Shown here piece by piece: positions 1-1,768 of a stretch of 11,852 nt of DNA. The stretch covers positions 1 through 11,852 of the forward strand of contig JACOVV010000035.1 in the NCBI GenBank assembly GCA_016177145.1. Reading direction: 5' to 3'. Under the pieces are notes generated by a model that made no database searches, was not told the origin of the DNA, and worked only from the letters and a program-made list of their open reading frames with translations. Both the position numbers and the translations under genes were made by a program. Every line of letters starts with the position of its first letter. Position 1 is the stretch's first letter. The stretch comes from Candidatus Omnitrophota bacterium (GTDB taxonomy: Bacteria; Omnitrophota; Gorgyraeia; JACOVV01).

Positions 1-25
1 GGGGCACATTGCAATGTGCCTCTAC
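1..25. repeat. Palindromic repeat copy 1, inside trpE
   Basis: Core ACATTGCAATGT lies between GGGGC on the left and GCCTCTAC on the right. The left end is cut by the window edge, so three bases (GTA expected) are missing. One arm mismatch (CTCTAC for CCCTAC) breaks perfect symmetry. The core is identical to that of copy 3 at 670-697. It is read in frame in trpE as VEAHCNVP. Confidence 0.85.
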
Positions 26-631
26 CATTTCCGATTTTTTTAACAATTGGATCAATTCTTTAATCTTACCAATCGCCAGTTGGTAGGCCCGGGCCGCCGG
101 GATCCCTTCAATAAAAGCGTTGGCGACCACGCGGATCTTATGTTGAGCGTGATCGAAGACAACCATCTGGTCCGCCAGCATCAAGTAAGTTTCCGGCAAA
201 CCCCATGGATCGGGGTTCTTATCCGGAATCCTCTCGCAGAAACGGACTAAATCATAAGCCAGATAGCCGACGAGTCCTCCCTGAAAGCGAGGCAGGTCGG
301 CCGAAGGGATGAACCGGTATCCCTTCAACAGTTTTTCGATTTCATAGAACGGGTCATTCATCTGTCCGCCGACGATTTTTTTCCCCTGGATTTTCTCGAA
401 ATGGCGGCCGCGGCTTTTCCAGACATAACGGGGCCGAATCCCGACGAAAGAATACCGCGCGATCTTCTCCTCCCCTTCAACCGATTCCAGGAGAAACGCG
501 TATGGTTCGTTTTTGGAGATCTTCAGGAACGCGGAGACGGGAGTTTCCGTGTCGGCAAGGAATTCTTCGTAGACGGGAATGACGTTCCCTTGGGCGGCTA
601 ATTTCAGAAATTCAGGTTTATTCGGATGCAT
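1..631 (-). CDS. trpE: Anthranilate synthase component I, N-terminal part (runs off left edge)
   Basis: Anthranilate synthase component I makes anthranilate from chorismate in the first committed step of tryptophan synthesis, working with a glutamine amidotransferase subunit in the cytoplasm. I translated the minus strand by hand from the ATG at 629-631. The frame stays open for 210 codons to the window edge. Residues 47-50 are LLES, the motif around the serine that binds tryptophan for feedback inhibition in this family, followed by EGEEKIARYSFVG, typical of the TrpE N-terminal domain. The catalytic chorismate-binding domain would lie beyond the left edge. Residues 203-210 (VEAHCNVP) are encoded by a copy of the palindromic repeat, probably in the linker between the two domains. 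There is no good ribosome binding site close to the ATG; the leader ends in another repeat copy nine bases upstream. PabB or another chorismate-using enzyme is the alternative, but the N-terminal motifs favour TrpE. Confidence 0.88.
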   Translation of the reverse strand, partial: MHPNKPEFLKLAAQGNVIPVYEEFLADTETPVSAFLKISKNEPYAFLLESVEGEEKIARYSFVGIRPRYVWKSRGRHFEKIQGKKIVGGQMNDPFYEIEKLLKGYRFIPSADLPRFQGGLVGYLAYDLVRFCERIPDKNPDPWGLPETYLMLADQMVVFDHAQHKIRVVANAFIEGIPAARAYQLAIGKIKELIQLLKKSEMVEAHCNVP

Positions 632-640
632 TTATTTTTT

Positions 641-665
641 GTAGGGGCGCCCCTTGTGGGCGCCC
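641..665. repeat. Palindromic repeat copy 2, degenerate right end
   Basis: It starts with an intact GTAGGGGC end. GGGGCGCCC then faces GGGCGCCC across a short loop (CTTGT region). The right end reads CCCTTCC instead of CCCCTAC. It lies nine bases from the trpE start codon and forms the 3' end of the trpE leader. Confidence 0.75.
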
Positions 666-669
666 TTCC

Positions 670-697
670 GTAGGGGCACATTGCAATGTGCCCCTAC
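670..697. repeat. Palindromic repeat copy 3, perfect 28-bp palindrome
   Basis: GTAGGGGC and GCCCCTAC ends flank the core ACATTGCAATGT. The whole 28 bp equals its own reverse complement. The core is the same as that of copy 1 inside trpE. Confidence 0.95.
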
Positions 698-702
698 ACG
701 TT

Positions 703-733
703 GTATCAGGGCGGGCACAAGGCCCGCCCCTAC
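703..733. repeat. Palindromic repeat copy 4, degenerate left end
   Basis: GGGCGGGC (709-716) pairs with GCCCGCCC (722-729) around an ACAAG loop. The right end GCCCCTAC is intact; the left end reads GTATCAGGGC rather than GTAGGGGC. Confidence 0.8.
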
Positions 734-760
734 GTCAACGTTTATTGCAATTAATTCCAT

Positions 761-789
761 GTAGGGGCGGGTTTTAAACCCGCCCCTAC
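761..789. repeat. Palindromic repeat copy 5, near-perfect 29 bp
   Basis: GTAGGGGC and GCCCCTAC ends flank a 13-base core, GGGTTTTAAACCC, symmetric around a central T. Both ends are intact. Confidence 0.95.
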
Positions 790-821
790 GTCATTGTTAT
801 AATCCCCCGTGATTGTCTGAC

Positions 822-847
822 GTAGGGGCGCAATTTATTGCGCCCTA
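822..847. repeat. Palindromic repeat copy 6, left half of a paired unit
   Basis: GGGCGCAAT (826-834) pairs with ATTGCGCCC (837-845). The left end GTAGGGGC is intact; the right end is CGCCCTATCC, degenerate. With copy 7 it forms a two-hairpin unit whose outer ends are intact and inner ends degenerate. Confidence 0.9.
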
Positions 848-850
848 TCC

Positions 851-879
851 TTGCAGGGCGTGATAAATCACGCCCCTAC
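851..879. repeat. Palindromic repeat copy 7, right half of a paired unit
   Basis: GGGCGTGAT (856-864) pairs with ATCACGCCC (867-875). The left end TTGCAGGGC is degenerate; the right end GCCCCTAC is intact. It ends 11 bases before the stop codon of the DUF62 gene. Confidence 0.9.
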
Positions 880-890
880 AATGCATCGTC

Positions 891-1697
891 TCATTCCCAC
901 TCCACCCTCACCGGATCGCCTACTTTTGCTTGCAGTTCCTTCTGGGCGCTTCCCTGATTGACAGCGATCTCCAGCAAATCGGCGCTCGCAACAACAGCGA
1001 CCCATTCTCCAGGAGAGGCGTCTCCGTAACTACGGACAATCCGGTGTAATTTTTTATACGCGATCCCAACGCGGCACTGCCGGCTCCTTGGAATCATCTG
1101 CGAGGGGATGTTGGTAATCAAATTCCCAAAGTGATCAATATAGAAAACCTCCCCCTCGATTGTTTTCTCTCCTTTTGTGGCTGGTTTGGTAGCGAGCAAT
1201 CGTAGGGGCGAACGGCCGTTCGCCCCTACGTTGATCGGTTTCCCGAATTTCCTGGGATGGGGATCTCGATAGAGATGCGCCGCGACCGGAGACATGATAT
1301 CCCTTCCGTGGAAAGTGGCACTGACTGGAGAGAGCCAGTATTTGGCATTGGCCACTTCAATTACCTGCTTTAATTTCTCCCGCTCCAGCACCAACGTCAA
1401 AAGGCCGTTATCCGGATTGACAAAATACCAATCGCCTAATTGCGCGATGACGATCCGGCGATCGGTTCCGACGCCGGGATCCACGACCGACAAAAAGATC
1501 GTCCCTTTTGGAAAAAACCGATACGAGACTCCCAACAGATACGCGCCGGAACGGATATCCTGAGGCGGCACCTCATGGCAAAGATCAATGACCGGCGCCT
1601 GTGGAGCGATGGAATGAATCACCCCTTTAATCACCCCGACATACTGGTCTTTGTGGCCGAAATCGGTTAATAGGACAACGGGTGGTTTTCTCGTCAT
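891..1697 (-). CDS. SAM hydroxide adenosyltransferase (DUF62 family)
   Basis: This 268-residue protein belongs to the SAM hydroxide adenosyltransferase family (PF01887). Members split S-adenosylmethionine with water to adenosine and methionine; some relatives use halide instead. Family marks are TDFG (residues 11-14), DPGVGT (73-78), PDNG (95-98), TFHGRDI (128-134) and the C-terminal barrel start at GEVFYIDHFGNLITNI (182-197). D73, R80 or R81, and H130 match the Asp-Arg-His set described for the hydrolases. The ATG at 1697 is preceded by a weak purine stretch (AGAAAGA). Residues 157-166 (VGANGRSPLR) are encoded by a perfect palindromic repeat, between the N- and C-terminal domains. It lies 67 nt after the OppC-type gene and 259 nt before trpE, both gaps filled by the same repeats. 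The link to its neighbours is unclear. A housekeeping or SAM-control role is only an inference. Confidence 0.92.
   Translation of the reverse strand: MTRKPPVVLLTDFGHKDQYVGVIKGVIHSIAPQAPVIDLCHEVPPQDIRSGAYLLGVSYRFFPKGTIFLSVVDPGVGTDRRIVIAQLGDWYFVNPDNGLLTLVLEREKLKQVIEVANAKYWLSPVSATFHGRDIMSPVAAHLYRDPHPRKFGKPINVGANGRSPLRLLATKPATKGEKTIEGEVFYIDHFGNLITNIPSQMIPRSRQCRVGIAYKKLHRIVRSYGDASPGEWVAVVASADLLEIAVNQGSAQKELQAKVGDPVRVEWE
1202..1229. repeat. Palindromic repeat copy 8, inside the DUF62 coding sequence
   Basis: A perfect 28-bp palindrome: GTAGGGGC and GCCCCTAC ends with core GAACGGCCGTTC. It extends to 30 bp with flanking C and G (1201-1230). It is read in frame on the minus strand as V-G-A-N-G-R-S-P-L-R, starting with the GTA codon. 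Confidence 0.95.
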
Positions 1698-1710
1698 TGA
1701 TTATCTTTCT

Positions 1711-1740
1711 GTAGGGGCGGACCCCCGTATCCGCCCTCTT
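1711..1740. repeat. Palindromic repeat copy 9, left half of a paired unit
   Basis: GGGCGGA pairs with TCCGCCC across a CCCCCGTA loop. The left end GTAGGGGC is intact; the right end CGCCCTCTTT is degenerate. It begins 13 bases upstream of the DUF62 start codon. Confidence 0.85.
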
Positions 1741-1768
1741 TAGGGCACACACAGGGGTGTGCCCCTAC
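1741..1768. repeat. Palindromic repeat copy 10, right half of a paired unit; carries the stop codon of the upstream gene
   Basis: GGGCACAC pairs with GTGTGCCC. The right end GCCCCTAC is intact; the left end (TAGGGC) is degenerate. On the minus strand the GTAGGGG end supplies the TAG (1765-1767) that ends the OppC-type permease gene. Confidence 0.88.

Follow-up and report, generated by a model that had tools for sequence, protein, structure and literature searches.

The first 1,768 positions of contig JACOVV010000035.1 from a Candidatus Omnitrophota draft genome (GCA_016177145.1; the whole stretch analyzed, 11,852 nucleotides long, is called the window) hold ten hairpin units built on the ends GTAGGGGC and GCCCCTAC. 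We read these palindromes, with a probability of roughly 0.75, as GTAG-tagged repetitive extragenic palindromes (REPs) linked to subclass 2.4 of TnpAREP, the REP-associated tyrosine transposases (RAYTs), in one-foot and two-foot forms whose core would serve as a RAYT-specific address. Most likely the varying core marks the repeat's own transposase, and the fixed ends are common to many bacterial phyla. The anatomy of the window repeats and the enzyme gene of the same genome place them in this described class, and we infer that a RAYT recognizes the core as an address and is responsible for cutting and spreading the copies.

In the proposed arrangement, the constant foot would be GTAG plus GGGC, and the core would consist of the middle stem and the loop, differing between RAYT lineages and copied whole inside a genome. 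The one-foot form would be a hairpin with an unsymmetrical loop, set in inverted pairs; the two-foot form would be a hairpin whose loop is mostly self-complementary as well. Pairing would be kept because the substrate of an HUH enzyme is a single strand in folded form, as established for other TnpAREPs in the consulted part of PMC8266576. Foot, stem, and loop would read the same on both strands of a two-foot hairpin, which lets one short element take the place of an inverted pair; the loop of this form would be symmetric because both strands must show one enzyme the same loop.

Hairpins inside and beside RAYT genes

A GTAG hairpin lies inside the gene in 56 of 96 RAYT frames (one gene, L332/L039, is counted twice), compared to 2 of 96 reversed genes. 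The base GGGC is present in 63 of the 71 hairpins inside RAYT genes, and 65 of the 69 that could be placed are 10–88 codons after the HuH motif. For the 40 loci with hairpins both inside and outside the gene, 28 have an identical hairpin in both positions (permutation mean 0.98, maximum 6). If these loci are disaggregated by origin, sharing was found at 17 of 17 from genomes that had been selected because they hold palindromes (permutation mean 1.12), at 11 of 22 in a Chloroflexota sample not selected for palindromes (permutation mean 0.74, maximum 5; hairpin inside the gene in 32 of 67 frames), and at 0 of 1 among scan loci. The Chloroflexota sample comprises 69 of the 109 RAYT matches from this phylum (that of genome G049), which came from 65 positive genomes out of 301 searched. 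A first pass over 30 loci, considering base GGGC, gave 14 of 14. The recurrence of identical hairpins within RAYT genes and next to them suggests that the core is an address specific to one RAYT on a shared foot, and cores are better described as tied to RAYT loci than as freely changing.

We also considered that the loop is read and the stem is free, which found no support as a general rule. At the 30 RAYT loci with at least two distinct hairpins, 24 hairpin pairs kept the stem and changed the loop, 8 kept the loop and changed the stem, and 37 changed both; the one-foot units of the window's own genome alone have the look of such a rule. At locus L402, where the RAYT core is GACC-CGCCG, an adjoining hairpin (GCAG-CACCG) resembles the core GCAG-CGACG of the RAYT at L335 (63.5% identical), and is perhaps a relic of an older core.

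A search for a Y1 or RAYT-type transposase, as suggested in the initial annotation, turned up a RAYT of this kind in the window's own genome (G000:C73:5270-5839, locus L346; E 1.5e-53). The search profile was an alignment of 31 RAYTs, the query plus 30 of 120 listed. The gene is a 207-aa frame with the motifs NHLH, WQ, and YIINNP; subclass 2.4 has NH[IFV]H, WQ, and YIxNNP, so that NHLH departs from the consensus. Two GTAG hairpins lie inside the gene and two adjoin it, and window positions 709-733 are identical over 25 nt, as reverse complement, to L346:2149-2173 adjoining this RAYT. The own RAYT is therefore adjoined by the same hairpins as far as the one-foot type is concerned. PF01797 was rejected as a test for RAYT presence, as it misses this RAYT and the frames of L039 and L127.

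The same profile, applied to 47 genomes, found a RAYT in 25, of which 23 are among the 30 genomes with palindromes and 2 among the 17 class relatives that lack them (Fisher p 4e-5, confounded by phylum). An early look at 41 Y1_Tnp matches from 40 stretches gave little sign of a link to GTAGGGGC. A hairpin was found inside the RAYT reading frame at three scanned loci, and at least 7,997 relatives of one hairpin-bearing RAYT were found among 8,000 scored. In the set of 121 proteins made up of the query and the best 120 of these 7,997, the motif NH-x-HG is present in 110, with APT at most 60 residues after it in 96 of the 110; the right foot encodes APT in the RAYT reading frame. Among 96 proteins with GT-xx-RAPT, the dipeptide could be encoded by a palindromic hexamer in 73, compared to 52 of the 400 possible dipeptides, although common descent inflates this count.

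Several side observations concern related genes. Two of the RAYT relatives (P0016, P0017) have repeated RAPT-like peptides after the HUH motif, and locus L361 has two adjoining RAYT frames that are 84% identical. Other Y1 transposase genes in palindrome-bearing genomes (L208, L211, L222) have GTAG hairpins on their flanks in which the stem base differs, being of the GGTGCGG, GGTGGG, or GGCGGGC type.

Core pairing across bacteria

Palindromes of this kind are widely distributed. The 80 titled rows among the matches listed bear about 20 phylum-level names, including Cyanobacteria, Chloroflexi, Deltaproteobacteria, Omnitrophota, Planctomycetota, Bacteroidota, several Firmicutes, Spirochaetia, Acidobacteria, Gemmatimonadota, Poribacteria, Kuenenbacteria, Nitrospirae, and others. 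Forty-nine of the genomes listed, all selected because they contain a match, have 1,675 occurrences of the pattern and 9 of its reversed control. Cores were compared in a scan of contigs from at least 118 stretches among the matches listed, which yielded 126 copies with 90 distinct cores.

Among distinct even-length cores, stem pairs match in 59–61 of 62 (outermost 55 of 57), in contrast to 45 and 46 of 62 for the two central pairs, i.e., 95–98% vs. 73–74%. For the 54 distinct cores of 12 nt, the numbers of matched pairs from the center outward are 42, 43, 54, 51, 53, and 52, compared to shuffle means of 21.8, 17.3, 15.4, 16.4, 17.3, and 34.0, which means that the arms match better than the conserved ends account for. 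Tight stem columns with a looser center are characteristic of hairpins that have a loop of four bases. The initial annotation had left the choice between selected pairing and the copying of one arm onto the other; the difference between stem and center makes selection for folding the better reading.

Arm copying would be brought about by quasipalindrome template switching, in which replication errors template one arm of an imperfect palindrome on the other, so that the arms would match without selection for pairing. The center of the core, though looser than the stem, is still more self-complementary than shuffled cores at both of its pairs, which a hairpin does not need in order to pair, and half-changed and fully changed variants (GAATAATTATTC, GAATAATCATTC, GAATGATCATTC) stand side by side in the window's own genome. 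However, copying does not predict that stem pairs are kept far better than central pairs, nor that one-foot hairpins retain unsymmetrical loops (0 of 14 distinct loops self-complementary in the own genome, vs. 8 of 10 in two-foot hairpins), and it leaves the identical hairpins inside and beside RAYT genes unexplained. We consider it unlikely as the main explanation, but it may contribute as a mutation process.

The conserved folding would suit selected RNA hairpins (terminators, mRNA stabilizers, or attenuators), whatever their means of spread, with the RAYT link incidental; according to the portion of PMC3733652 consulted, most REPs are reported downstream of genes, and transcription is assumed for many of them. 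Yet the hairpin at 1202-1229 of the window is in frame within a gene, as are many copies within RAYT genes, and an RNA hairpin does not require the fixed sequence GTAGGGGC. This explanation is, in our estimation, improbable.

Self-complementary loops were counted separately for the two forms, and two-foot hairpins tend to have them more often than one-foot hairpins. In the scanned stretches among the matches listed, they make up 29 of 52 even and 14 of 19 odd two-foot loops, and 2 of 9 even and 6 of 12 odd one-foot loops. At RAYT loci, the counts are 19 of 22 even and 6 of 7 odd for two-foot hairpins, and 9 of 35 even and 16 of 35 odd for one-foot hairpins.

Pairing ends at GTAG/CTAC, as the flanks of 125 copies are about as complementary as shuffled flanks, with five exceptions. 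These five (L057:4255, L102:3083, L062:1943, L037:6254, L031:589) have 7–11 bp of extra inverted flank, different in each, as if they had been inserted at the center of another palindrome or had grown outward. Insertion into palindromes found no support as a general rule, with extra inverted flank in 5 of the 125 copies alone. Nor is target duplication above chance in these copies compared to shuffled flanks: direct repeats of length 0–5 border 86, 26, 8, 2, 2, and 1 copies (shuffled: 91.7, 24.0, 6.6, 1.9, 0.5, and 0.3), as expected of an HUH enzyme.

Sharp ends, dispersed copies, and the lack of general complementarity past the ends could also describe miniature terminal-repeat elements mobilized by a transposase of the DDE type, for which GTAGGGGC ends would be the recognition site. 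The lack of target duplication argues against such elements, as do the missing end in six of the ten window units and the HUH type of the gene that carries and adjoins the same hairpins, and we regard them as very improbable. Many two-foot copies are symmetric to the center, which would also fit sites that a protein dimer binds as double-stranded DNA and whose symmetry mirrors its own. A single protein would keep the core constant, however, whereas cores vary from copy to copy, and unsymmetrical one-foot forms share the same foot; we give this possibility hardly any credence.

Weighing the link to RAYTs

A number of results weigh against RAYT-linked REPs as the explanation. No movement was observed. 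In the own genome, no RAYT with a two-foot core was found, and the RAYT locus there has one-foot hairpins only; the symmetric cores of this genome would belong to other RAYTs that were lost, were missed, or are in the unassembled part (the draft is 60% complete). Three RAYTs tried against NCBIfam NF047646 scored 58.7, 70.2, and 71.4 bits, below the curated cut-off of 80. Seven of the 30 palindrome-bearing genomes had no RAYT match, including the same-genus G001 and G071 with 110 copies, and the matches in G037 and G073 are weak and partial. Restricted to the class, the contrast in RAYT presence is only 3 of 6 vs. 2 of 17 (p 0.09).

At the level of loci, 40 of the 96 RAYT frames have no hairpin inside, and 12 of the 40 loci with both kinds share none. 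Copies that were scanned independently have a core in common with a RAYT locus of their genome at only 4 of 16 loci (permutation mean 0.37), the RAYT gene's own copy accounting for one of the four. A near-match version of this comparison (8 of 14 genomes, permutation mean 1.5) is not counted as evidence, since two of the 16 loci (L039, L086) are absent from it and a single core represents each of two loci with several, at L049 the matching one. RAYT similarity and core similarity are correlated at 0.15–0.18, exceeding all 500 permutations, and shared cores mostly go with more than 60% protein identity, but common descent alone could yield a correlation of this size. The rule that two-foot loops are symmetric is also weaker for even loops in scanned stretches (29/52 vs. 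2/9) and for odd loops at RAYT loci (6/7 vs. 16/35).

Hairpin units of the window and its genome

The window units are listed in Table 1. They had been described as ten palindromes sharing both ends; ten hairpins are indeed present, with both feet on only four of them and a GTAG foot on one side in the other six. The latter form three inverted pairs with feet and tags outside (641/733, 822/879, and 1711/1768), which is the layout of a REPIN, and the first of these pairs encloses a two-foot unit, a layout that recurs with other cores in contigs of the own genome (L021, L151, L152). GTAGGGGC with at most one mismatch has 18 matches in the window compared to 7.15 expected, a number reached in none of 200 shuffles; the 12 exact matches are all at 641-1768. 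The remainder of the window beyond 1768 is packed with reading frames, which may be enough to explain why copies are absent there. One window protein has its nearest named relatives in Candidatus Omnitrophica (67% identity), which makes an Omnitrophota host probable.

Table 1. Hairpin units at 1-1768 of the window, with the core (two-foot hairpins) or the stem and loop (one-foot REPs) of each.
Unit	Position	Strand	Description
Two-foot hairpin	1..25	.	Core ACATTGCAATGT; contig begins at fourth base (three missing); right foot has one mismatch
One-foot REP	641..665	+	Stem GGGCGCCC, loop CTTGT; left arm of inverted pair with 709-733
Two-foot hairpin	670..697	.	Core ACATTGCAATGT; between arms 641-665 and 709-733
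One-foot REP	709..733	-	Stem GGGCGGGC, loop CTTGT; paired with 641-665
Two-foot hairpin	761..789	.	Core GGGTTTTAAACCC; commonest two-foot core of the own-genome sample (13/41)
One-foot REP	822..845	+	Stem GGGCGCAA, loop TTTA; paired with 856-879
One-foot REP	856..879	-	Stem GGGCGTGA; loop TTTA as in 822-845, stem differs
Two-foot hairpin	1202..1229	.	Core GAACGGCCGTTC; in frame within gene 891-1697, codons about 157-166
One-foot REP	1711..1736	+	Loop CCCCGT, one stem mismatch; paired with 1743-1768
One-foot REP	1743..1768	-	Stem GGGCACAC, loop CCCTGT; paired with 1711-1736

The gene at 891-1697 is a SAM hydroxide adenosyltransferase, and its in-frame hairpin falls between the annotated domains 7-151 and 182-264.

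A search of the whole draft genome (1.23 Mb) for the two-ended palindrome, proposed earlier as a check, found 76 copies and none for the reversed-pattern control. Cores were compared in 25 stretches of this genome, 24 picked for holding copies and one (L346) for its RAYT. The 41 two-foot copies in this sample have 12 distinct cores, of which the four commonest account for 28, and fall into about five core groups: GGGTTT-N-AAACCC (17), ACAT-type (10), GAAT-type (7), GAACGG-type (4), and GGGGTAACCCC (3). The 32 one-foot copies represent 15 stem-loop types, with CTTGT, CCCTGT, and CCCCGT as prominent loops. Cores are copied whole within this genome, and the variety in the window is therefore a mixture of few families. 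The initial annotation had the core changing freely, which describes the differences between genomes and not those within one; the opposite case it had named, a few fixed cores copied whole, applies in part to the own genome. In addition to the window contig, four others of this genome (C10, C49, C60, C127) start inside such palindromes, so the repeats probably break the assembly.

Possible core exchange in a 98-bp repeat of Nostoc-group genomes

In Nostoc-group genomes, a two-foot unit sits at the center of a 98-bp imperfect inverted repeat, and unrelated, well-paired cores occupy this same central site. Sixty distinct copies from 90 loci have the cores ACAG-CTGT (38), GCAA (10), AATT-CATG-AATT (4), GCAC/GCTA (6), and others (2). 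The junction CATCTGTY / CGCGT is found in some copies of each of the first three cores (e.g., L289, L273, L286), and the GCAC group has a different junction, CAATCCYCG / AACGT. With exact anchors, 57 filled copies were found in 9 of 15 genomes, and no empty repeat in any of the 15. In genome G092, some 98-bp repeats have the core GCACAGCTGTGC, which recurs within one RAYT gene and next to it; the loop CATTG of a second RAYT in this genome equals that of the commonest core of the 98-bp repeat, with differing stems. In some 98-bp copies of G092 and G075, GTAGGGTA...TACCCTAC replaces GTAGGGGC...GCCCCTAC, so that the stem base itself is altered with its pairing retained.

The simplest reading of the 98-bp repeat is block replacement of the core with pairing kept. 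Alternatively, there may have been separate insertions into an empty repeat that is no longer seen, followed by spread. More generally, and as a tentative proposal that we hold to be possible rather than probable, GTAGGGGC hairpins could be interchangeable cassettes, with the foot as the socket they have in common and the core as a key specific to one RAYT, the whole core being replaceable at an occupied site. If so, the surrounding repeat or RAYT reading frame would stay intact when a core is replaced, and the copies inside and beside a RAYT gene would change in concert.

REPs are frequent repeats in bacteria, and their spread and the way in which RAYTs distinguish between them are named as open questions in the consulted part of PMC8266576. 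A constant foot across about 20 phylum-level names, together with matched cores, would offer dozens of natural enzyme-hairpin pairs for a recognition code, and the 98-bp repeat a fixed site where core exchange could be watched.

Comparison with known REP systems

Although the initial annotation knew of no mobilizing enzyme, double-foot REPs and their RAYTs had already been published, among them subclass 2.4, whose genes hold REPs in frame between the HuH and Y motifs (Quentin et al., 2018, PMC6006769; comparisons here are with the portions of each cited paper that we consulted). Its REPs have 5' GT[AG]G with the complement at the 3' end, and the subclass is scattered over phyla; in the window, three whole units and one cut unit have 5' GT[AG]G and 3' C[TC]AC. 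Found here and not in that description are one constant base, GGGC, over many phyla, cores that are identical within many RAYT genes and next to them, and unrelated cores at the fixed site of a larger repeat. A common foot across phyla and core identity inside and beside RAYTs were not found in the consulted portions of the papers searched, and core exchange at a fixed site was not reported in the literature searched, with supplements, figures, and most subscription papers outside the search.

The GTAG-tagged REP superfamily (Di Nocera et al., 2013, PMC3733652) shares the GTAG tag, short stems with alternative complementary residues, and inverted dimers, and some of its families are inserted within palindromic repeats. 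Nine whole window units are short, GC-rich hairpins with GTAG as their 5' end, the tenth being cut by the contig start. In that superfamily the tag is unpaired and at one end, as in six of the ten window units; in the four two-foot units, by contrast, both ends carry a paired tag. The main text of that paper (text searched, figures aside) does not contain the string GTAGGGGC.

REPINs (Bertels and Rainey, 2011, PMC3116915) are likewise inverted REP pairs linked to a RAYT. Here, however, a two-foot hairpin can sit within such a pair, and lone two-foot hairpins are the commonest type of cluster (26 of 46).

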